64,000 nucleotides of DNA from Chrysoperla carnea. Its lineage: Eukaryota; Arthropoda; Insecta; Neuroptera; Chrysopidae. Of the stretch, positions 42,181 to 56,187 are shown in pieces. Each line of letters begins with the position of its first letter. Position 1 is the stretch's first letter. The notes under the pieces were generated by a model that searched no databases, was not told the origin of the DNA, and saw only the letters and a program-made list of their open reading frames with translations. The DNA is taken from contig NC_058340.1 in assembly GCF_905475395.1 (NCBI RefSeq), forward strand, positions 53,670,181 to 53,734,180, in the 5' to 3' direction. Made by a program: the position numbers and the translations under genes.

Positions 42181-43416
42181 TTAGAACCTAGCATGATGAT
42201 TTTCATATTGTTCAATGGCTTCATCTTCGATTCGTGCAAGATCAGCTTTAGCATTATTTATTCGTTTATTATCCGCAATTTGTTGATTTAATTGTTCGAA
42301 GTATTCTTCATGTTGACGTCTCTTTTCATCGTGAACATTTTGTAAAGTAGTCTCTCTTTTAATTTGTGTTTCATTTTCCACTATCTGATCGTGTAATGGA
42401 AAATTAGCTTCATCTTCTAATCGTTCACGATTCGCCTTTACAATATTGTATTGCTTTTTATCTGCAATTTGTTGATTTAATTCTTCGAAATATTGCTCAT
42501 GTTGTCGTCTTTTTTCGTCATGTTGATTTTGTACACTTTGATTTCTGTTCATTTGTGAATTTGATTCCTCTGCCTGATTGTGTAGTGGTGAATGTCCTAA
42601 GGCAGCTAGATGACGTTCTTTAGCTGTTTGAGCATGTACATTCAATTTTTCCGGTGATTTAAATGCATCTACATCCTTATGTGAACTTTGATCATTTTTA
42701 TTCGCTGATTTATCATTTTGATTGTGTAAAAAGTCTTGGTACTCTTGGCGACGTTCCTTCAATAACCGTTGTTTATTATCATCATTTTCTTGCCCAAAAC
42801 TAAACATTGAGTTTCCATTATTTGAAATTGAAGCATGTTGTAATGAATTTTGTAATTTTTCAATATTTGTTTGTCTACTTTCTGCTAAATTAACATTCTT
42901 ACGATAGCCGTGAGAAGGTTGTTGTTCTTCTCCGAAACCAAGGAATGAATTTGCATTCACTTTCTCATAATATTTATCTGGTTTAGTAAAATGATAATCT
43001 TTTTTGGTTAAATACGTTTGGTATTCTTCCTTTCTTTCACTATCTAGTTGATCATGTGATATTTGCCTTTTTTCTGCTAATATTACATCCTTATGATATC
43101 CATGCTTGGGTTGTGTGGGGGTTCCTCCAAAACCAAGAAAATTATCTGGATTCACATCTTCAACGTACTGATTTGTTTTTGTATAATTGTCCGTCTGTTT
43201 TGATAAATAATCCATGTAATCTTGTTTTCGTTCATTGTTTAATTTTATACGATTACTATTTGATTCATCGCCAATGCCTAGAAAACCTCTCATATTATCA
43301 ATTTTTCCTTGACCAGTTGTTTCTTCATCTTCCATTCCAAGTCGTTGTTTTTCTTTCGAAAATTTGTTCTTGTAATCATTTAAAACTTGGTTAATATTTT
43401 CATTTTCTGAATTCAT
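42181..43416 (-). CDS. CSPP1-like coiled-coil repeat protein, paralogue 1 (411 aa)
   Basis: Single-exon frame, complete from ATG to stop. The N-terminal half has four degenerate units, each with an LGFGE-like motif followed by a charged helix: FLGIGDESNSNRIKLNNERK (45-64), FLGFGG...ERKEEYQTYL (93-136), FLGFGEEQQ (158-166) and MFSFGQ...ERRQEYQDFL (204-230). The C-terminal half has two ~70-residue units DEKRRQHEQYFEELNQQIAD, then RERLEDEANFPL, predicted long helices. The LP(L/I)GE...ERNKEYNQFL units and EKYRLELLEQM segment of animal CSPP1, a microtubule protein of centrosomes and cilia, are arranged alike. Homology is inferred from motif pattern, not a search. It lacks signal peptide and membrane segments. 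AATAAA is on the minus strand at 42013-42018. The flanks are related to those of paralogues 2 and 3. Confidence 0.85.
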   Translation of the reverse strand: MNSENENINQVLNDYKNKFSKEKQRLGMEDEETTGQGKIDNMRGFLGIGDESNSNRIKLNNERKQDYMDYLSKQTDNYTKTNQYVEDVNPDNFLGFGGTPTQPKHGYHKDVILAEKRQISHDQLDSERKEEYQTYLTKKDYHFTKPDKYYEKVNANSFLGFGEEQQPSHGYRKNVNLAESRQTNIEKLQNSLQHASISNNGNSMFSFGQENDDNKQRLLKERRQEYQDFLHNQNDKSANKNDQSSHKDVDAFKSPEKLNVHAQTAKERHLAALGHSPLHNQAEESNSQMNRNQSVQNQHDEKRRQHEQYFEELNQQIADKKQYNIVKANRERLEDEANFPLHDQIVENETQIKRETTLQNVHDEKRRQHEEYFEQLNQQIADNKRINNAKADLARIEDEAIEQYENHHARF

Positions 43417-44049
43417 AATGAAATTATTTAATATTTTATATTATCAACTTTTTCACAAATAAGTTTACTTTTGACACAAATAATTTAATAACTGAATTTT
43501 AAGCAGTATGTATCTATCATCTACTATCTATGGTATCTATATATTATAAGGTAATAACCCCACTATTTGAAATTTGGCCGTTTATAGGTGTACTCTGAAA
43601 TTAATCCAGCATGCTAGTCAGCATAGATTTGCACTCAGCTGATTGGTTAATAAACCGCGTCATCATGGTAACATAAGCTGGTCAGGTAAGCTGGATAGAA
43701 TTTTACAGCACACGCGAGTTATTATCGATAAAACTTAAATAACTAGTAGGGGAAAAGTTCGTTATTTTTTCCGATATAAAAAATAATAAAAGATTGAAAT
43801 ATAATGGCATCCTTCATAGTAAGTGAGCAATATACTGGTGATCTAAAAGTCTTTTTAGCCTAACATATTTTTATTTCCTATTGACGGCTGACATGAGCTG
43901 CAATAATGTATTATCGTTAGTCAAAAATAAATCATGAAATTTGAAAAGAGTTAAAATTTATGTAAAAATATATTTAAATATTCTGATTTCGAGTCATAAA
44001 AGTACATTTTTCTTTTAAAATATTAAAATTAAAAATCGCGGGTAAGCAC

Positions 44050-44386
44050 TGCTGTGATGTCATAGCGGTATGAGTCATAGACCATCAGTTAGTTCAGTGT
44101 AGACAGTTGGGTATAATATATACATAGATAAGTAATTATATTTATTATAATCAGATGTCTATGAATATATCTGTCAAAATTATTTGTGTTATTTCATATA
44201 GTGATACCCATATTATGTCATCAAATTGGATGCCCGCGTTTTTGACAGTTGAAAAAAGGTTTAAAATTTAATTTAAGTTTATGGCAAGAAAGAGTGTGTA
44301 TTTTTCCGAAATAAATTTTTGGTGGCTTTTTATTAGCAAAATCAACATTTTGAAGTACTTTTTCAAAAATAGTGGAATACCCTAGA
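44050..44386 (+). repeat. Family C dispersed repeat, copy 3
   Basis: CTGTGATGTCAT on the left and ATGGCAAGAAAGAGTG...GTGGCTTTTTATTAGC...TTTTGAAGTACTTTTTC on the right match the copies in Capa introns. It lies between paralogues 1 and 2. Confidence 0.7.
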
Positions 44387-46351
44387 TTACAACACGAAAA
44401 GAAATTGCTTGTAAGTACATTAATAGGTATATAAGGGCAAAATAAAATGCGTATTTAGGAAGAGCACAGTGACATTCATTAAAAGATTCGGAAAATCATC
44501 ATGCATGCAGTTTTTTTAAGACAGATGAATAGAACAAGGTCATTGGTATAGTTGGGTAGAGGAAAAGGCGAGCCGGATCCACCCTAAAGAAATCGACATA
44601 TAATAAAAAATAAATATAGGTAACTCAACAGCTTTAAAAGTACAATTAAAAGGAATTATCTCTTGTTTCGAACAGTATGTCAAAAAATTAATGTGATAAA
44701 ATGAATCACATAAATAAACAAATCTTGTATCTTTGTCCAATTTTTTGTCCGAAACTAATAATGAATCGTAATTGAAATGAAAAGGTCTATTATTTTAGTT
44801 TTAACTAAAAATAATTATCTGAAATACCGATTCATAATCGGTTAATTAATAGTTCCAGTGAGAATTATAGATAGGACGCTTCCTACGTTAGTATCAACAA
44901 ATAAATAAAATGTTAAATTTGGGAAAAACAGCTATAATTTTATAACACCTCTTTTCGGTAAATAATTTATTACTTATTAATAATTGGAATTTTTGATTGA
45001 TTAGTATCAGTAGTACATATGTCACCGTAATGTTGTAATTTCCATCATATTGTAAACTCACTACAAAAATTGTAAAATTAACTTCCAATAAAATAGCTAA
45101 ACAGCACCCCAACCCGTGTTAACTCGACCCAGATCAACTAGACATAACACAATGAGTTAATTTTCATTAAGGGTTGAGTTAGCGCTAGTTGGAGTGATTT
45201 TTTGTAACCATTTTACTATCTGACGGAAATTACAATATTACGTTGACATATACACCAGAGTACGAACATACGGATCATTATTTCGTATAAATTGGTATCA
45301 GGCACTTATACACAAATATTAGAATAACAATAGATAAGATATAGAAAATATAAAACTTTCAATTACAAAGCTGTTCTTTATAAAAAAAAGTCATTTTTTA
45401 CGAAAATCAAAAGCATTTGGTACCAGTAGTTTTTAAAACAAGAAATAAATAGCATAGCATTTGCAATTTTTTGTTTGTTTATGGAAGTCCATATAGGCTC
45501 CTGGTTCACGGCAATATTAAAACCGATTTGAGAAGGTGATATCAAAAGTCAGTAATTTATGCATGCACTTTTTACGCTCGATGTAAGTAGAAAAAGGATA
45601 ATTTTGTAATACACTAGGTGCCACTATCCTTTTCTACTTACTCTGAGTGTAAAAAATGTTTGCAAAAAGAACATCCGTGTTGTTTTTCACAAAACACTAC
45701 ACTGAACACTCTAAATCTTGTTAAGGTCGTTCCTGGATGATTAGATCTGTATACTAAAATATTTACCTCAAGTTCACGCAAAAAATTAAAAATTCAAAAA
45801 ATATTTTCCAAGAACGAAAATTTTCCATTTCTTGATTTTCGCTTTTTCAATTACCGATAAATCATTGACGAATTTCACCAATTCTAACATTTCAAATATT
45901 AATAGTGCACTTTCTCAGTTTGCTTTACTAACTCTCTTTTTGTGATAACAATTTGAAAATTAAAAGATAATCAGACAGCAAAGATTAAACTTTATTAAAT
46001 ACATGTAAATACATTTCTAAAATAAATAATATAAATGCATATTAATTTGTATTCGAAACTCATTAATAACAATTAGTGCGTATTAACACCTATAATATCT
46101 ACGATCGATATTTTATGATCGATTTAAAAAGCGGAAATTTAAAGCTTGAAAAATTTTTAATAATAAAAAGAGTTATATTTTATTATTAAAAATGAGATCC
46201 CATATAAATAAAGCTCGAATCCAATTCAAATTAATCGGAAATTAATTAGAATGAATAGAAAATACAGTTTCCAATTCATTTGTATTCAAATCCGTTGAAA
46301 ATTTTGAATCGAAATGAATGAGAATCAAACCCATTCAAAATATCACATTAA

Positions 46352-47752
46352 TTAAAACATAGCATGGTTATGCTCGTATCGAACAATGGCCTCATCTTCT
46401 AAGCGTTCTAACTTAGCCTTTGCAATTTTCCGTTGTTTATTATCTTCGATTTGTTGACATAATTGCTCAAGATATTCTTCATTTTTACGTTTCTTTTCAT
46501 CTTGTTCCATGAGTTCTCTATTAATTTGCGTATCATTTTCTGTTATCTGATCTGTTATGTGCAGCGGTAAATTCGCTTCATCTTCTAACTGTTCACGATT
46601 AGCCTTTTCGGTATCCAGAAGTTTATTATCTGCCACTTGTTCATTTAATTGTTCATAGTATTCTTCACATTGGCGTCTCTTTTCGTCATCTTCGTTTTGT
46701 AAAGTAATCTTTCTTTGAATTTGTGTATAATTTTCTTCAGTCTGAGAGGGCGACGGGGAATTAGCTTCATATTCTAATCGTTCACGATTCGCCTTTACAA
46801 TATTGTATTGCTTTTTGTCCGCAATTTGTTGGCTTAATTCTTGAGAATATTGCTCATGTTGTCGTCTTTTTTCGTCTTGTTGATTTTGCAGGCTTTGCTC
46901 TCTGTTCATTTGTGAATTAGCTTCCTCTATCTGATTGTGAAGTGGTGAATGTGCTAAAGCAGCAAGATAACGTTGATGTGCATTCAATTCTGTAACATTC
47001 TCAATAGATGATTTATCATTTTGATTTTGTGAATGGTCTTGATACTCGTTCTTTGGCGTTTCTGGACGCACCTTCCACAACTGCTGTTTATTATCATCGG
47101 TTTTTTGTTCAAAATTAGATATATTTAAGCTTCCATAAGTTGAAATAGAAGCTTGCTGTAACGAGTTTTGTAATTTTTCAATAGCAGTTTCTCTACTTTC
47201 GTGCAAATTCACTTTCTTACGACCATGAGTACCATGAGTAGGTTGTTTACCGCCTTCTCCAAACCCAAGAAACGAATCTGCATTCACTTTCTCAAAGTAT
47301 TCATCTGGTTTAGAAAATTGAACATCAGTTTTCGATAAATATGTTTGGTATTCTTGTTTTCTTTCATCAGCTAATTGATCATGAGATATTTGTCTCTTCT
47401 CTGCTGTAATTACATTCTTATGACGTTCATGCCTACCTTGGCTTTCACCAAAACCAAGAAATGTATCTGGATTCACATCTTCAAAGTATTCATCTGGTTT
47501 AGTAAAATTATCATTCTTGTTTGATAAATAATCTATGTAATCTTGTTTCCGTTCATTACTTAATTTTATACGATGATTCTCTGATTCATCGCCAGTTCCT
47601 GGATATCCTCCCATGGTATCTCTATCATTTTTTTCCTCATCGGATTTATCATCATCATCTTCATCATTCAATCCAAATTTTTGTTTTTCATCAGAAAATT
47701 TTTTTTTGTAATCATTTAGTTTTTGTGAGTTAATTTCATTTTCGACAGACAT
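46352..47752 (-). CDS. CSPP1-like coiled-coil repeat protein, paralogue 2 (466 aa)
   Basis: Single-exon frame, complete. It starts MSVENEINSQKLNDYKKKFS, followed by an acidic stretch (DEDDDDKSDEEKND). Residues 55-75 carry GDESENHRIKLSNERKQDY. FLGFGE motifs at 98 and 161 head two 63-residue units, each with EKRQISHDQLADERKQEYQT and a KPDEYFE.VN linker. The C-terminal half has four helical units with (Q/D)DEKRRQHEQY..., ending RYEHNHAMF. It is much closer to paralogue 3 than to paralogue 1. Its coding frame is intact despite many indels between copies, all in multiples of three where I could compare, so it is probably under selection. It is most likely a cytoskeletal protein with coiled coils. 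CSPP1 kinship is inferred. Confidence 0.85.
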   Translation of the reverse strand: MSVENEINSQKLNDYKKKFSDEKQKFGLNDEDDDDKSDEEKNDRDTMGGYPGTGDESENHRIKLSNERKQDYIDYLSNKNDNFTKPDEYFEDVNPDTFLGFGESQGRHERHKNVITAEKRQISHDQLADERKQEYQTYLSKTDVQFSKPDEYFEKVNADSFLGFGEGGKQPTHGTHGRKKVNLHESRETAIEKLQNSLQQASISTYGSLNISNFEQKTDDNKQQLWKVRPETPKNEYQDHSQNQNDKSSIENVTELNAHQRYLAALAHSPLHNQIEEANSQMNREQSLQNQQDEKRRQHEQYSQELSQQIADKKQYNIVKANRERLEYEANSPSPSQTEENYTQIQRKITLQNEDDEKRRQCEEYYEQLNEQVADNKLLDTEKANREQLEDEANLPLHITDQITENDTQINRELMEQDEKKRKNEEYLEQLCQQIEDNKQRKIAKAKLERLEDEAIVRYEHNHAMF

Positions 47753-47929
47753 ACTTAAAATGTTTTAAAAGATAATTTTTAAAGCAAATAATTTACTCAA
47801 ATACAAATGCAGTATTCACAGTTTAGAATAATATTAGGTATAATATTGTAATAATCGATAACTATGACAGACTAGTGGTATGTACTTAATGATGTAACAA
47901 CATAAACTAGTTAAATATGAGTAGGGGCT

Positions 47930-48065
47930 AGAGCTCTATATACGAAGGGGCTCCTCTTATTATAGCGTGTACTTCTCAATATGTAATCGCAATACATATT
48001 ACGTCTACAAATCTACCACTATTTCGTACGAACTACAAGGTGTAACAGAAAAAATGTTGCTATAT
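47930..48065 (-). promoter_or_regulatory. Conserved upstream block of paralogues 2 and 3, candidate promoter
   Basis: The block at 47930-48065 matches 55475-55622 and lies ~180-310 bp upstream of the ATG in both genes. It contains minus-strand CGTATATAGAG in both, a possible TATA element. Nothing marks a transcription start directly. Confidence 0.3.
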
Positions 48066-49649
48066 AAAAATTAAAGGGAGAAATGTTTGAGGGTGAGGGT
48101 AGATGCGGTAAAAATTGGCTTTGTTCAGGAATGGTATTTGTAAGGCGAAATTCAAGAGCTGTGTTCATGAAGTGAGGTGTTGACTCATGAACAATTTTAC
48201 AGGACGTTCTTGTGTCTGTCGGGGTCGATAAATATACAATATATATTCCATATGTCCCTATAGACACGTTTTTAATAAGAAATGTGTAGGCTACATTAAA
48301 TAAAGAAAAATGTTTCAAACAAAAGTTATTGGGTTAGGTTAAAGTGGGATACCTTAAAAAAACATTGATTTTGACCTTCAGAACTTTCTGGAATTCTATT
48401 TGGATTCGTATTGATAAGAAGTATAGAAGATAACTTTTAATTCGAAAATTGTTCCTTATAAAATAACTAACATTTTTTAAATAAGAATAGATTCGACGAA
48501 ATTTGAATCTGAAATTCTCTCTTTTATAATCAACTTCTGCTTTGATTTATGAAAAAAATTGTTCTTCTTTTTATAACGAACAACTTTCTAATTTAAAGCG
48601 GTTTTCTATCTCTTATCAGTTAAGAGCTTAAGTTATAGCTATGATCTCGAGTGCAGCTAAACGTCAAATTCAAGATGTTTTAAAGATATTCTTCTTTCAG
48701 TTTGGTGTCTATGAGATGTTTAAAAGCAGGGTATGGTAAGGTTTTCGGAGGCAGTGTTGTGAGGGAGAGGTTGGGTCAATAGCGATGTTGTATAAGAGAA
48801 TAAGGGTTATCTATAGGAGGGCCAGAGGCGGTAGTAGTGGGCGAGCTCAAGGATAGTACGTATAGTGAATATTCTAGGCCGATTTCAGGGTAACAAAAAT
48901 ATTTTAGCCGTTAACAGCTAGTGGAGTTTTTCATGTTCATGACAGTGATTTTTTACATGTCACGCTACATGATTGTAAGGTTACTCAACTATGACACAAT
49001 AAAATATTTGCTTACAGTTGATATATGTATTGTATTGATTGTAATTTTATAGTATTGTACCTTATTTATTATAGGGAATCGCCTATTAATTATCTCACGT
49101 TCAGCGGTCAAAATTGTGTAAAAAAATTTTTTTATTCTCATCAAAATTTCTCAATAGAAATTTTTATTCTTTTAATTAACCATACATCATTTAATATTTC
49201 ATACAAGACTCATACAATATTTGTCAAATCGAAATAATTTAATTAATTCATTTCTTAGAAGATTTGAAATGGTAATATTTGATTTTTTAATTTGCTGGAA
49301 TCATAAAATTTAAATTTGGTTTTTTTTTTGGAAAAATTAAGAACGTTTTTGAGTTATTTTTGCAAATAGTCCAATAGCTTAGCTATTCTATGCATCGATT
49401 CGGACGTACTTCAACGTTTAGATTGTGAAGATTTAATCGACCAATTCGCAATTCAAAAAGTCAGGCGTGTTTCCCTGTGGAAAAAATTATTATAATATAA
49501 TTATGAATCAAGCTGAGTGCAAAATGTATAACTCTAAGAACAAAAACAAATATTTTTTTATTTCATATCAAAGTATATATAATAAATTATTTGCAATACA
49601 TTAAATATTTTAATTTTTTTTAAATAAGATATCAAAACTATATAACTTT

Positions 49650-49721
49650 TAGTGATATTTCAATGATGGGGCGGCATTTTTTCAGTGCCCAAGGGCGGCA
49701 GAAGTTTAAATCCGGCCCTGC
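49650..49721. repeat. hAT-like terminal fragment
   Basis: On the minus strand the block begins CAGGGCCGGATTTAAACTTC followed by TGCCGCCCTTGGGCAC. CAGGGCCGGATT is a frequent hAT-type inverted-repeat end. The partner end was not found. Confidence 0.4.
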
Positions 49722-50083
49722 TCACGTTGTAGTTAATATTTTAAAGTACTTTACCGAAAACATATGGGAAATATTTAAAATTAGGAAACGAAAAAACCCC
49801 TGTGTGTGGCATAATTTATATAAAGTTAATTAATTTTTAACCGACTTCAAACAAAAACGGAGGAGGTTATCAATTCGACTGTATGTTTTTCTTACATAAA
49901 CTTTTCTGCTATTTTAAAATAATATAGGATTTCATTGTGGATAACACAATGAGCGAGTGCCAATAAAGTTACATAAATTTCACACCTTTTCTGCAACTTT
50001 TACATAAGAATAGGACTTCATTTTGGAAAATCAAAATGAACAAATGGAAAATAAAACAATAAATAACATACAAATAACAAATT

Positions 50084-51872
50084 TTAATCATCATCACTTA
50101 TACGTAAAATCTGATATCGTAATTGAAAATCATTTCTATATTCTGGTAATAATTTGAGCTTAGCATTTTCACATGTAAATGATACCTGAGCAGGATTATG
50201 TTTCATTTGGAACTTAATTAAATTAATCCACGAATCAATATCAACATCACCATACAAATTACATACAATTTCCAATAAATGTTTAATAATTTTATAATTC
50301 GGTCGAATATGCGATGATTCTAATGAAATCATTTTTCGTATTAATTCCAATGGTTGTTTCTCTGACCGAAGCATTTCCAGAAATGTTGTCCGTGCAAATG
50401 AAAAACTTTTCTCAATAATTAACCATTCAATATAATCAATTTTTAATGGATTCGAAACCTCCTCAAACGGAACAGAAATTCCATCTAAATAGAATTTTTT
50501 AATTTTTTGGAATTTTTCCTCCCGATCATCATTATTGGGTATCATGTAATATTTGATTACAATTTTCCATAGTGGCAGTGCTTTATCTTTTAATGCTTCC
50601 ACACCTTTTTTGAATGTGATGTCAATTTCACTATTTTTACCATCCTTAACATAAAAACATAATAATTCGGTCCATAATTGACATGATTCTGGATACTGTT
50701 CAATCCCATATTTGATAATATGTTCTTTATCAGTTAATTTATCTGTTAATTGTATTAACATCAAATAATGATGTTCCGTTAAAAATCGACTATTTGTTAC
50801 GCGACATCGTTCGTAGGTACATTGTAGAAGGTTATATTGAACTACTTCATTGGTATGTGGATAATTTAAAATTGTATTTAAATAATACTCCCACATTCGA
50901 GGTGTTTCGATTTGACTGACAGCATTTACATACACAGCACAAGCATTTTCTAATCGTTTTTTTACCGATAATTCCTTATCGATCGGTACCACATATCGTG
51001 AATCATATGGTTTACCCTCTAACGCTCTTAACGCTAATGCATGCCAAAAATATTCATTTTGTGAGAATTTCGCTTCTAATATATTTATAATTTCAAATTG
51101 TAATCGTCCAGACTCGTCATACTCGTCCGTCATATTTAAAAGATTACACAGCAGTTCAATTTTCGGTAAATATTTCAATGTTGATCGAAATATAATTAAT
51201 GCCGGTTCGAACGGTTTACTATTTTCTATTTTAATTTTAGTTTTTAATTTTAATTGAACGGTAAAAGCTTCAATGTACAAATTCTCACATTCTGGATTAT
51301 ATTGAAGTGCTTTTAGTAAGATTTGTTCAGCATCGCGTAATTGTCCCTGTTTTACATGCCATAATGCAGCTGCAGTCCATACTTCAGGATTTCTAGGATG
51401 TGTTTCCATCATTTTCTTATTAATTTCGGATACTTTTTCTAATCGACCAGCTTGTGTACCGAATGATATTAATGAAAGCCATAATGATATATCGTTTGTG
51501 AATTTTGTGATACTTTGCTCGTATAATTTAATAATTCGATTCGTTATAGATTGTTCTATATCTGATTTTTTACCCGCCACACAATGTTTCAATCTACGTA
51601 AGTGAATATCTTCTAACAGGTTGATTTCAAACTCAATGTATGATAAAAAATGATGTTTCTCTGTATCGTGTCGTTGAAGTTTGTATTCGAAATCAGATCT
51701 TTTTGATATTTGTTTCCTAAAAACATTAATACATATTAATACATTATCGGCTAAATAAATGCATGTTTCTCGTAACTAACCTTATTTCATCATCGTTATA
51801 TAAATTTAATCGTTTTAACTCCTCAAGTTCTGGTGTTATATTTTCTAAACGTTGTTTTACGTATTCTGCCAT
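50084..51872 (-). CDS. UTP6: U3 snoRNA-associated protein 6 (SSU processome, UTP-B)
   Basis: UTP6 is a half-a-TPR (HAT) repeat scaffold of the UTP-B complex that acts in nucleolar 18S pre-rRNA processing. Two exons: 51781-51872 and 50084-51716, a 64-bp GT-AG intron, 574 residues (human ~597). The start MAEYVKQRLENITPELEELK matches human MAEIIQERIEDRLPELEQLE. SDFEYKLQRHDTEKHHFLSY and FEINLLEDIHLRR follow and match the invariant SDLEYKIQRR...EINLLE...RRR. HAT-like units run through the rest: LWLSLISFGTQ, NPEVWTAAALWHVKQGQ, LLKALQYNPECENLYIE, RMWEYYLNTIL, PLKIDYIEWLII and SWINLIKFQMKH. The long ORF alone would begin at an internal Met (51592); the upstream exon restores the conserved N-terminus. 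It lies between CSPP1-like paralogues 2 and 3 on the same strand. A scrap duplicate is at 56188-56305. Confidence 0.96.
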
Positions 51873-52072
51873 ATTTTTTTAAAACTTTTAATACAAATCA
51901 CATATAAACCAACGAAATATTTTCAAAACATTTTCACTTGTCAATATTTTTAAAAGTTTAACCACGTTTTTTTTATGTTTCTCAAATCTGTTAACTAGAA
52001 TGGTACCATAAATAATAAATAAAGGGTACGTTCTGTGCATAGAATATATTGGTTAATTTAATTACACTTTAA

Positions 52073-52701
52073 GAATATTCATGTATTTTTTTATATTTTT
52101 AATTCATTGTTTACACCGTTATAACAAAGTAAAAAATATAAATACTGTTTAAAAATGCTGTATTTAAGTGTAAAAAAATATTTAAAATACATTATAATTT
52201 TGAGATATTTAAACGCAGTTTTTTGGCGCTCTCTGTTGATGACGTATAAGTACGTGATCTGTCAATTTTTGACAGTTCAATGTATAATTTACACTTTAAA
52301 AAAACGAATTTGCAACACAGAATTTACACTCGTTATTATTAAGTTTTCTAATAAAAAGTCGTAGAATAGTATAATTTAATGAAATAATAAATGATAAAAT
52401 GTAAGTAATTAATATCATACAGTATGTCAACCAAAGATATTGTAATAGTAGTCCATCTCTACTATTATTTTATCTATGATGTCAACAAATTTGACAAGCC
52501 CGTACTTTGATGTCACGTCCGTATACAAATTTGACTTTCCGTTTTAGATATTTTTAAATGCCTTCACTGAATTTGTACTTTTATTAATTAATTTTAAGTC
52601 ATTAAAAAGATATTATTTACTGAAATAATGGTTTAGTTGAAATGTCCAGTCATTAAAGTTACGGAAGAAAAATATTTGAACTAAATTTAAATATTCCCTA
52701 T
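52073..52701 (-). mobile_element. Family B MITE, copy 3, with known empty site
   Basis: Inverted relative to the copies at 19574 and 33411. It is flanked by TTAA (52069-52072 and 52702-52705). The duplicated segment at 56311-56335 reads TAATTTAATTACAATTTAAG directly followed by AATTATGAC, which is the same locus without the element. The left end lacks the outermost ~5 bp of the family consensus. The 69-codon open frame inside is incidental. Confidence 0.85.
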
Positions 52702-53552
52702 TTAAGAATTATGACGTCAGCATTTCAAACTACTACCTGATTAAATACTAACAAGTAACTAGTATATTCAGAAAATACTCATAAGCTAAAAAAGAATTCA
52801 AAATTTTCCATTTAAAATCTCAGTTTTTTAAGTCACATTGCTCCAAATGATCATCCCTTAATTCTCTCATTTGAACTGTCGTTGATCTCCATTAATATTC
52901 ATTATAATCGCGATTAAAAACTGGCAGTGCTTAACGAAATGGAAAAGTTATATACTACGATCGTTTGTATTCGTAGCAACTCTATATTTCAAATATTTGA
53001 TAGTGCACTTTTTCAGTTTGCTTTAACTCTATCTCTTTTTGAAATAACAATTTGAAAATCAAAGATAATCGTAGACAGCAAAAATAAACTTTATTAAATA
53101 TATGTAAATACATTTCTAAAATGAACAATATAAATGCATATTAATTTGTAATAGAAACTCATTAGTAACAATTAGTGAGTATATTAACACCTATATTATC
53201 TACGATCGATATTATGATCGATTTAAAAAGCAAAATTTTAAGTTTGAAACATCTTTATTAAAAATGGGATCTCATATATAAATAAAGCTCGAACGCAATT
53301 CAAATTAATCGGAAATTAGTTAGAATGGATCGAAAATACAGTGTCCAATTCATCTTATTCAGATCCGTGTAAAATTTTGAATAGAAATGAATGAGAATCA
53401 AACCCATTCAAAATTTTGAATCATAATAAATGGGAATGAATCAGAAAAAAATAATTTTTCTCTTTTTCATTCTCATTCATTTTGATTAATTTTCGATTCC
53501 TTTGAATAGAAAATCAATCGACTTTAATAGTAGTAAATTAATAAATATTACA

Positions 53553-55280
53553 TTAATTAAAACGGTGGTCATAATGACTATGCTGGTATCGCTCGGAGGC
53601 TTCATCTTCTAAGCGTTCTTTATTAGCCGTTGCAATTCTCCTTTGCTTGTTATCATCGATTTGTTGACATAATTCGTCAAGATATTCTTCATTTTTACGA
53701 TTCTTTTCATCTTGTTCCATGATTTCTGTATCATCTCTATTAATTTGTGTATCATCTTCAGTTGTTATCTGATCTGTTATGTCCAGCGGTAAATTGGCTT
53801 CATCTTCTAACTGTTCACGACTAGCCTTTTCGGTATCCAGTTGTTTATTATATTCTTCACATTGGCGTTTATTTTCGTCGTCTTCGTTTCGTAAAGTAAT
53901 CTTTCTTTGAATTTGCGTATAATTTTCTTCAGTCTGATTTACAATATTGTATTGTTTTTTGTCTGCAATTTGTTGACTTAATTCTTGAGAATATTGCTCA
54001 TGTTGTCGTCTCTTTTCATCGTTAAGATTTTGTAAATTATGTTCTCTGTTCATTTGTGAATTGGCTTCTTCTATCTGATTATGAAGTGGTGAATGTGTTA
54101 AAGCAGCAAGGTAACGTTGATGTGCATTCAATTCGGGAACATTCTCATTAGATGATTTATCGTTTTGATTTTGTGAATAGATTTGCTGCTCTTTCACAAA
54201 AACGTTTATTGGCGTTTCTGGTGCCTTCCATAACTGTTTGTTATCATCATTTTTTTCTTCTAAATTAGATAAATTTAAGCTTCCATAAGTTGAAATGGAA
54301 GCTTGTTGTAACGAATTTTGTAATTTTTCAATAGTAGTTTCTCCACTATTATTTAAATTCACTTTCTTTCGATCATCAGTACCATGAGTAGATTGTTTAA
54401 CGCCTTCTCCAAATTCAAGAAACGAATCTTCATTCACTTTCTCAAAATATTCATCTGGTTTAGAAAAATGATCATCACTTTTCGATAAGTATGTTTGGTA
54501 CTCTTGTTTTCTTTCACCATCTAATTGATCATGAAATATTTGTCTCTTCTCTGCAGTAATTACATTCTTATGACGTGCATGCCTATCTTGGGTTTCACCA
54601 AAACCAAGAAACGAATCTGCATTCACTTTCTCAAAATATTCATCTGGTTTAGAAAAATGATCATCACTTTTCGATAAGTATGTTTGGTACTCTTGTTTTC
54701 TTTCATCATCTAATTGATCATGAAATATTTGTCTCTTCTCTGCAGTAATTACATTCTTATGACGTGCATGCCTATCTTGGGTTTCACCAAAACCAAGAAA
54801 CGAATCTGCATTCACTTTCTCAAAATATTCATCTGGTTTAGAAAATTGAACATCAGTTTTCGATAAATGTGTTTGGTACTCTTGTTTTCTTTCATCAGCT
54901 AATTGATCATGAGATATTTGTCTCTTCTCTGCGGTAATTACATTCTTATGACGTTCATGCCTATCTTGGCTTTCACCAAAACCAAGAAATGTATCTGGAT
55001 TCACATCTTCAAAGTATTCATATGGTTTAGTAAAATTATCATTCTTGTTTGATAAATAATCTATGTAATCTTGTTTCCGTTCATTACTTAATTTTATACG
55101 ATGATCCTCTGATTCATCGCCAGTTCCTGGATATCCTTCCATGTTATCTTCGTCATTTTTTTCCTGATCGGATTTATCATCATCATCTTCATCTTTCAAT
55201 CCAAATTTTTCTTTTTCATCAGAAATTGTTTTTTTGTAATCATTTAGTTTTTGTGAGTTAATTTCATTTTCGACAGACAT
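53553..55280 (-). CDS. CSPP1-like coiled-coil repeat protein, paralogue 3 (575 aa), expanded repeat
   Basis: Single-exon frame, complete. The N-terminus MSVENEINSQKLNDYKKTIS is nearly that of paralogue 2. It has FLGFGE-type motifs at residues 98, 161, 224 and 287 (the last FLEFGE), exactly 63 residues apart, against two in paralogue 2. Each unit reads RHARHKNVITAEKRQIFHDQ, then ERKQEYQTYLSK and SKPDEYFEKVNADS. The C-terminal helical half is shorter in places (one RRQHEQYSQEL unit lost its middle) and ends with a histidine-rich HYDHRFN. It is a member of the inferred CSPP1-like family; the role is unknown, and a microtubule or centrosome association is a guess from resemblance. AATAAA is at 53090-53095 on the minus strand. 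Confidence 0.85.
   Translation of the reverse strand: MSVENEINSQKLNDYKKTISDEKEKFGLKDEDDDDKSDQEKNDEDNMEGYPGTGDESEDHRIKLSNERKQDYIDYLSNKNDNFTKPYEYFEDVNPDTFLGFGESQDRHERHKNVITAEKRQISHDQLADERKQEYQTHLSKTDVQFSKPDEYFEKVNADSFLGFGETQDRHARHKNVITAEKRQIFHDQLDDERKQEYQTYLSKSDDHFSKPDEYFEKVNADSFLGFGETQDRHARHKNVITAEKRQIFHDQLDGERKQEYQTYLSKSDDHFSKPDEYFEKVNEDSFLEFGEGVKQSTHGTDDRKKVNLNNSGETTIEKLQNSLQQASISTYGSLNLSNLEEKNDDNKQLWKAPETPINVFVKEQQIYSQNQNDKSSNENVPELNAHQRYLAALTHSPLHNQIEEANSQMNREHNLQNLNDEKRRQHEQYSQELSQQIADKKQYNIVNQTEENYTQIQRKITLRNEDDENKRQCEEYNKQLDTEKASREQLEDEANLPLDITDQITTEDDTQINRDDTEIMEQDEKNRKNEEYLDELCQQIDDNKQRRIATANKERLEDEASERYQHSHYDHRFN
54423..55178 (-). repeat. Coding tandem repeat, 189-bp unit x 4
   Basis: The anchor sequence recurs at 54423, 54612, 54801 and 54990, exactly 189 bp apart (63 codons). 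The two middle-left units (54423-54611 and 54612-54800) are almost identical in their shared part; I saw a single difference over the ~130 bp read side by side. The outer ones are more diverged. The repeat count differs between paralogues (2 versus 4), so it expanded after the gene duplication. Confidence 0.95.
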
Positions 55281-56187
55281 ACTTAAATGTTTTAAAAGAA
55301 AGTTTTCATAACAAATAATTTACTCAAATACAATGCGTAGTATTCACAAGTTATAATAATATTACGTATTATAATGGATACCAAATATATTAATCGATAT
55401 CTATTACAGACCAGTAGTATGCACTGCAGTAGTATGCACTTATTGATGCAACAACTAATATAAACTAGTCCAATATGTAGGGGCCAGAACTCTATATACG
55501 TAGGGACTCCTCTATATACACAGCGTACTTCTTAATATGTAATTTCAATACATATTACCTCTATAAATCTACAACTATTTTGTATGAACTACAAAGTGTA
55601 ACAATAAAAATTTTGCTATGTGTTGTGGAGTGGTTTGTTATCCAGAAAATTAACTTTCCACTTTTTATGGCTTCTACTGGCCTTTTTCCTATTAAAAAAT
55701 TTTCCTTGAATTTAATTAAATTGTAAAGTGTGTATAGAGTTCATGCGAGTGTTTCATTTTTGTTTGTATGATTCATTATTTTAAGTGTACCCACATCTTA
55801 AAAATGCACCCACTTTTATTTACTATATTGATTGATTTTTCTAGAACAATAAATTTTAATAACAATTCATCTTATTATTCTACGCAATTCATGCATGGAA
55901 TACTGAGTTGACTCATTTAAGAAAAATACTCCCATATAGGTTCCAGTCCAAGTACTTTAACTTAATTTAACTATGTTATAACTATGAGTTTTTTAACATT
56001 CTTAGAGTATTTAGTCATTTTTTCACACAATTGCTTTACAAATCCTTTTTATAATCCCTTGAATACTATATTGAAGGTCAAAGAAAAATTATTGGGTATA
56101 AAGTGAGATACCTCAAAAATATCTTTAATTTGATCTCGACCTTCAGAATGAAATGAAATTAATTAAAATCATTACTCTATATTTGGT

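Follow-up and report, generated by a model that had tools for sequence, protein, structure and literature searches.

An intronless CSPP1-derived gene family with a likely retroposed founder in the lacewing Chrysoperla carnea

CSPP1, the product of a human ciliopathy gene (PMC12170345), acts inside the microtubule, in the lumen (PMC9948759, PMC12170345), and is one of the few proteins known to work on microtubules from within. Residues 375-453 of the human protein bind the microtubule, part of helix H6 (706-796) is a pausing domain, and the main effects of CSPP1 are recovered with a construct that joins the binding piece, the pausing domain and a dimerising leucine zipper (PMC9948759). Here we describe genes of the lacewing Chrysoperla carnea that keep, in order and without introns, three parts of CSPP1: the start, encoded by exon 1, the FFGFGE plus helix unit of exon 2 and the coiled region of exon 5. 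Three of them, genes A, B and C, lie in a 64-kb window (the whole stretch of DNA analysed, C4:53670181-53734180; C1, C2 and C4 denote chromosomes 1, 2 and 4) of a genome searched over 559,487,470 bases in 337 contigs. They are intact minus-strand open reading frames of 411, 466 and 575 amino acids (aa), located exactly where an initial annotation of this DNA had placed them.

Genes A, B and C together with a UTP6 frame make up all four of the stop-to-stop frames of at least 150 aa listed for the window, a listing that excludes frames running off its ends. Because no other frames of this length are listed, in DNA of about 70% A+T, a chance origin of the long frames is unreasonable. The repeats described earlier were confirmed by pattern search, both as FLGFGE plus helix units of about 63 aa and as C-terminal helical units. 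The FLxFG motif occurs three times in A, spaced 48 and 65 aa apart, twice in B and four times in C, with 63 aa (189 bp) from one motif to the next in the latter two genes; DEKRRQHEQY-type helical units number two, three and three in A, B and C, respectively. A genome search with gene C returned 15 matches, a count to be read as a lower bound, at seven loci on three chromosomes, of which five are long and intact (A, B, C, C2a and C2b) and two are short (C1a and C1b). Four of these loci, on chromosomes 2 and 1, lay outside the view of the initial annotation, and its description of the family as tandem holds for A, B and C and fails for the other four, which are dispersed. The 63-aa unit has been multiplied within genes, and each protein has between one and three complete units besides partial ones. 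DNA identity reaches 99% between the second and third units of C and 97% between the first two of C2a, whereas in C2b the three units are only 86-90% identical to one another, which does not exceed their identity to units of other genes. Between genes, unit identity is 93-97% for B against C and 60-81% for A, the remaining comparisons among B, C, C2a and C2b giving 83-92%. In C1a, the leader KHLS, which precedes the start codon in related copies, is now coding at the module junctions.

The initial annotation had also proposed a kinship with CSPP1, which is supported through the lacewing's own CSPP1 gene. A multi-exon parent was sought elsewhere in the genome and found as a seven-exon gene on chromosome 4, where the gene A query gave a weak new match (C4:53146576-53146803, expect value (E) 0.018). 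Gene A starts about 0.56 Mb beyond the end of this gene on the chromosome. All six introns of the model have GT and AG ends and consistent phases; exon ends were picked by eye, so these splice signs are no independent test. The protein contains AFFGFGE...ERRLDYKEYLEK (exon 2) and ARQHEKYHEDLRKQIEEK. Its identity was established against a human CSPP1 sequence that is unverified and whose residue numbering may be off: three hhalign matches are colinear (E 0.0009, 0.0023 and 0.044), a fourth is out of order (E 0.23), and the N-terminal part matches by BLASTP (E 7.9e-5). Exon 2 aligns with the human LPLGE unit (BLASTP) and exon 5 with the pausing-domain region, human 718-775 (hhalign). Exons 6-7 hold the motif RAQSPP and a following KNV...QL..E..RL stretch (BLASTP E 0.13); the model is short, at 534 aa, and ends soon after this region. 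The human N-terminal part matched nothing in the genome at E up to 10, a search too insensitive to be telling, as the parent is present, and no counterpart of the human C-terminal region was found there, its best match (E 2.36) having been rejected as, by eye, a Rel/NF-kB-like gene. Pfam gave no match for pieces of lacewing CSPP1 (best E 0.2) or for two ends of the human protein (best E 0.24). In the PDB nothing matched the human N-terminal part, and the two amylase chains matched by lacewing CSPP1 (E 0.23 and 0.25) were discarded.

BLASTP, Smith-Waterman and hhalign agree on kinship of the family with lacewing CSPP1. In hhalign, residues 1-79 of the family profile (gene A numbering) align with CSPP1 residues 1-96 (E 1.1e-5, probability 82%) and residues 263-337 with CSPP1 residues 223-298 (E 1.3e-5, probability 81%), the two blocks standing in the same order in family and parent and carrying the profile similarity beyond a generic coil. 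Their scores of 47.7 and 47.2 were reached neither by any of 200 locally shuffled CSPP1 sequences (maximum 25.3) nor by reversed CSPP1 (18.3) nor by the best of 24 other frames (24.4). The 25 decoy frames, from which C1a (score 198) was set aside and which included CSPP1 exon 6 (14.3) and at least one antisense frame of C2b, are few and non-independent, and the shuffles are the better control. Smith-Waterman scores of the five long copies against lacewing CSPP1 ranged from 160 to 197, with gene A highest, and were equalled by none of 200 shuffles of either kind in any of the five; reversed CSPP1 scored 81-124. With the N-terminal 170 aa, which are without coils, no shuffle in 1000 reached the score of A, B, C or C2a, and 28 in 1000 reached that of C2b. 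By BLASTP, B residues 1-83 match CSPP1 residues 1-95 (E 0.004) and B residues 97-158 match CSPP1 residues 62-121 (E 0.003), identity being about 27-43% in the better blocks between family and parent. Against the human protein, the score of the N-terminal module was reached by 3, 4, 3, 0 and 27 of 1000 shuffles for A, B, C, C2a and C2b, respectively. The later part of CSPP1 (RAQSPP...KNV...QL..E..RL) appears in the five long proteins at chance level only (BLASTP E 1.3 or worse; no hhalign match), and because they are without recognisable exons 6-7 the genes are termed CSPP1-derived here, not CSPP1 orthologues.

The structure of the genes argues for a likely retroposed CSPP1 founder. The aligned blocks span CSPP1 exon junctions at residues 35 (B 1-83), 90 (B and C 97-158) and 226 (C 376-443 against CSPP1 215-283), and the family copies are single frames with no intron at these three parental junctions, which makes a spliced mRNA the likely source of the founder. 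Later spread was at the DNA level, because C2a and C1b carry, beyond the 5' flank, a decayed UTP6 start that comprises exon 1, the short intron 1 and the exon 2 region. The corresponding UTP6 gene lies between C and B and was identified by Pfam (UTP6_C, E 4.9e-13) and by human UTP6 in the PDB (E 6.6e-25); the fragments of it beside these two copies are at L051:6388-6766 (73%) and L054:5733-6072 (74%). The proposal of a retrogene founder followed by DNA-level duplication is thus supported, and that of shared flanks is borne out for B and C, which are 83% identical on the 3' side and 88% identical in a block that starts within the genes and extends over the 5' side (B 47255-48063 against C 54783-55619); gene A hardly shares them (75% over 76-100 bp, 3' side). 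B, C and C2a have TATATAGAG in common in their 5' flanks; in B and C this possible promoter element lies roughly 190-220 bp ahead of the start codon. An AATAAA or ATTAAA signal lies within 400 bases 3' of each of A, B and C.

The family genes are under constraint. Nei-Gojobori ratios of nonsynonymous to synonymous substitution (dN/dS, or omega) were below 1, the outcome that the initial annotation had named as support, in ten of ten pairs of the five long genes, the two short copies C1a and C1b being left out. Values ranged from 0.31 to 0.55, and in no pair did any of the 300 bootstrap samples reach 1; a value below 1 means that at least one of the two genes in that pair is constrained. Synonymous distances (dS) of 0.22-0.36 separate B, C, C2a and C2b from one another; gene A stands at dS 0.68-0.82 from the other four, with omega 0.34-0.37. 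The term young used in the initial annotation therefore suits B and C, which are fairly close (dS 0.22), and does not suit A, which is old (dS about 0.7), so that a recent origin of the whole family was dropped. Between B and C, the proportions of nonsynonymous and synonymous differences (pN and pS) are 0.065 and 0.191; the 5' flank, with a p-distance of 0.185 over 319 sites, has changed to an extent close to pS, and pN is a third of it.

The reading we favour, and consider probable, is that of an intronless CSPP1-derived family that arose from a retroposed founder, spread at the DNA level and encodes natural minimal CSPP1s that bind microtubules. A spliced CSPP1 mRNA would have been copied back into the genome, and the content of exons 6 and 7 would have been lost or altered beyond recognition. 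Its descendants multiplied in tandem on chromosome 4 and were carried as DNA copies to chromosomes 2 and 1, C2a and C1b with a piece of UTP6. The proteins would combine a multiplied unit resembling the microtubule-binding piece with a coil resembling the pausing domain, and several weak contacts may allow multivalent binding and stabilisation of the microtubule, probably from the lumen, with the coils mediating association. Judged from insect biology, the likeliest site would be the sperm flagellum, since sperm are where insects have their motile cilia. Sperm of the green lacewing Chrysopa pallens have a 9+9+2 axoneme (PMC10464168). A more specific version, in which the family is lineage-specific and the multiplied lumenal unit lines or measures the microtubules of the sperm flagellum, each 63-aa unit possibly covering about one 8-nm tubulin dimer and array length varying between paralogues, is a speculation that we regard as unlikely.

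Several observations weigh against the favoured reading. The hhalign probabilities are only those given above, 82 and 81%, with a single template sequence; whole lacewing CSPP1 found in the genome only its own seven exons (7 matches among 11 candidates) and not the family; and with B, C and C2b, reversed CSPP1 outscored the majority of shuffles (at most 124, for C, where the forward score is 173), a sign of composition bias. Whole proteins fare poorly against human CSPP1, where 42, 21, 97, 19 and 105 of 200 local shuffles reached the scores of A, B, C, C2a and C2b, the best match of the family profile had an E of 0.016, and the exon 2 unit is only weakly similar to the human binding piece (BLASTP E 0.50); because this whole-protein signal is only marginal, the claim of kinship is made through the lacewing parent. 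Downstream of B and C, the flanks differ by p 0.108 over 268 alignable sites, below silent-site change. The AlphaFold model of gene C is poor (mean predicted local distance difference test score 52.4, predicted template modelling score 0.19), with block means of 70-88 in the helix at the N terminus and in parts of the coils at the C terminus. Unrelated coiled-coil, low-complexity proteins resembling CSPP1 by composition would account for the weak whole-protein human score and for the raised reversed scores with B, C and C2b, given their E/K/Q/D/N-rich helical sequence. Such an explanation is very improbable and is largely refuted by the two colinear blocks, whose scores greatly exceed those of shuffles, of reversed sequence and of other frames, and by an N-terminal block that is not coil only, since it runs from the very first residues and contains the FxGxGE motif. 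No more credible are decaying processed pseudogenes whose frames are open by chance: both chromosome 1 copies are indeed short or rearranged, yet five of the seven loci keep frames of 411-575 aa, and the omega values and their bootstraps speak against decay.

Two further points on the opposing side concern the founder, namely that a retrocopy normally keeps its 3' end whereas no counterpart of exons 6-7 is recognisable in the family (BLASTP, hhalign), and that no poly(A) remnant is evident where the 3' flanks of A, B and C were read, over 250 bases from each gene, target-site duplications not having been searched. A CSPP1 duplicate made at the DNA level, with its introns lost later, would fit the missing 3' end, unusual for a retrocopy, as well as the location of parent and cluster on one chromosome and the DNA-level origin of the later copies; we consider it quite unlikely, as one-by-one loss at three junctions within the aligned blocks is less economical than retroposition. 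True descendants of CSPP1 might also work neither in the lumen nor in sperm, perhaps as a scaffold of somatic centrosomes or of the spindle, given that CSPP1 has a microtubule-organising region and a C-terminal centrosome-targeting region (PMC9948759). The 3' exons of CSPP1, however, have no recognisable counterpart in the family, and intronless, fast-evolving duplicates are often expressed in testis, so that action outside the lumen and sperm appears unlikely.

Table 1. Coordinates of the CSPP1-derived genes, their parts and flanks, the parental gene and the neighbouring UTP6 gene. Positions without a chromosome label are those of the window.
Feature	Position	Strand	Description
Gene A	42181..43416	-	411 aa, intact open reading frame; most diverged long paralogue
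Gene A two C-terminal helical units	42211..42519	-	hhalign, pattern search
Gene A 65-aa unit	42946..43140	-	pattern search
3' flank of B	45879..46341		83% against C flank 52977-53414
Gene B	46352..47752	-	466 aa, intact open reading frame
Gene B 63-aa unit	47273..47461	-	pattern search
5' flank of B	47753..48063		counterpart of 55281-55619; TATATAGAG about 190 bp before ATG
UTP6 gene between C and B	50084..51872	-	exon boundaries and start read by eye
3' flank of C	52977..53414		counterpart of 45879-46341
Gene C	53553..55280	-	575 aa, intact open reading frame; three full 63-aa units
Gene C C-terminal helical region	53559..54089	-	counterpart of CSPP1 exon 5; predicted helices 398-494, 510-574; hhalign
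Gene C 63-aa unit 3	54423..54611	-	pattern search
Gene C 63-aa unit 2	54612..54800	-	99% DNA identity with unit 3
Gene C 63-aa FLGFGE plus helix unit 1	54801..54989	-	pattern search; CSPP1 exon 2 has AFFGFGE...ERRLDYKEYLEK
Gene C N-terminal module	54990..55280	-	counterpart of CSPP1 exons 1 and 2; hhalign of family profile
5' flank of C	55281..55619		counterpart of 47753-48063
Lacewing CSPP1	C4:53139531-53148076		modelled, seven exons, 534 aa
C2a	C2:53837299-53838912		542 aa; genome search with gene C
C2b	C2:9356736-9358238		505 aa; genome search with gene C
C1a	C1:26034530-26035453		309 aa; four head-to-tail N-terminal modules in one frame
C1b	C1:91268-91567		frame of 109 codons; genome search with gene C

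The proteins themselves matched nothing in Pfam above the cut-off (best E 0.64 for A and 0.38 for B, none for C), and gene C had no match in a PDB sequence search at E up to 10. As to a viral origin, two pattern matches were obtained in viral_contigs, and neither was confirmed as a relative. Elsewhere in the genome, a complete bacterial-type COX1 frame of 542 aa without stops lies near the end of chromosome 1 (C1:138886126-138887466, minus strand), adjoined by frames that look Rickettsiales-like by eye; the region may be either inserted endosymbiont DNA or an assembly join. Decayed fragments of mitochondrial COX1 also occur in the nuclear genome, at C2:59569181-59569471 and C6:6312573-6313197.

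No description of such a CSPP1-derived family was found among the papers listed in searches of an open-access library, judged by titles and the beginnings of abstracts. With the parent still in the same genome, one can follow how a family passed from a single founder, likely retroposed, to DNA duplicates at scattered loci, and the differing number of units between genes provides a ready-made series for testing the role of each part and of array length. The Drosophila S-LAPs (PMC3078892), an example of the lineage-specific duplicated families of insect sperm proteins, resemble it as duplicated, lineage-restricted genes and differ in stemming from other parent genes. Human CSPP1 is similar in layout, with a glycine-rich motif before a charged helix and a coil of the pausing-domain kind, and differs in that its whole-protein signal is only marginal and that the activity of the family is inferred from sequence. 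Closest is lacewing CSPP1, which has the start region, the FxGFGE plus ER..DY..YL unit and the RYLA.L...EK.RQHE.Y.E.L..QI..K coil region in the same order as the family. Unlike the family, it has introns and recognisable exons 6-7, and it carries one unit and one coil unit, where the family proteins have between one and three complete units, besides partial ones, and two or three coil units.

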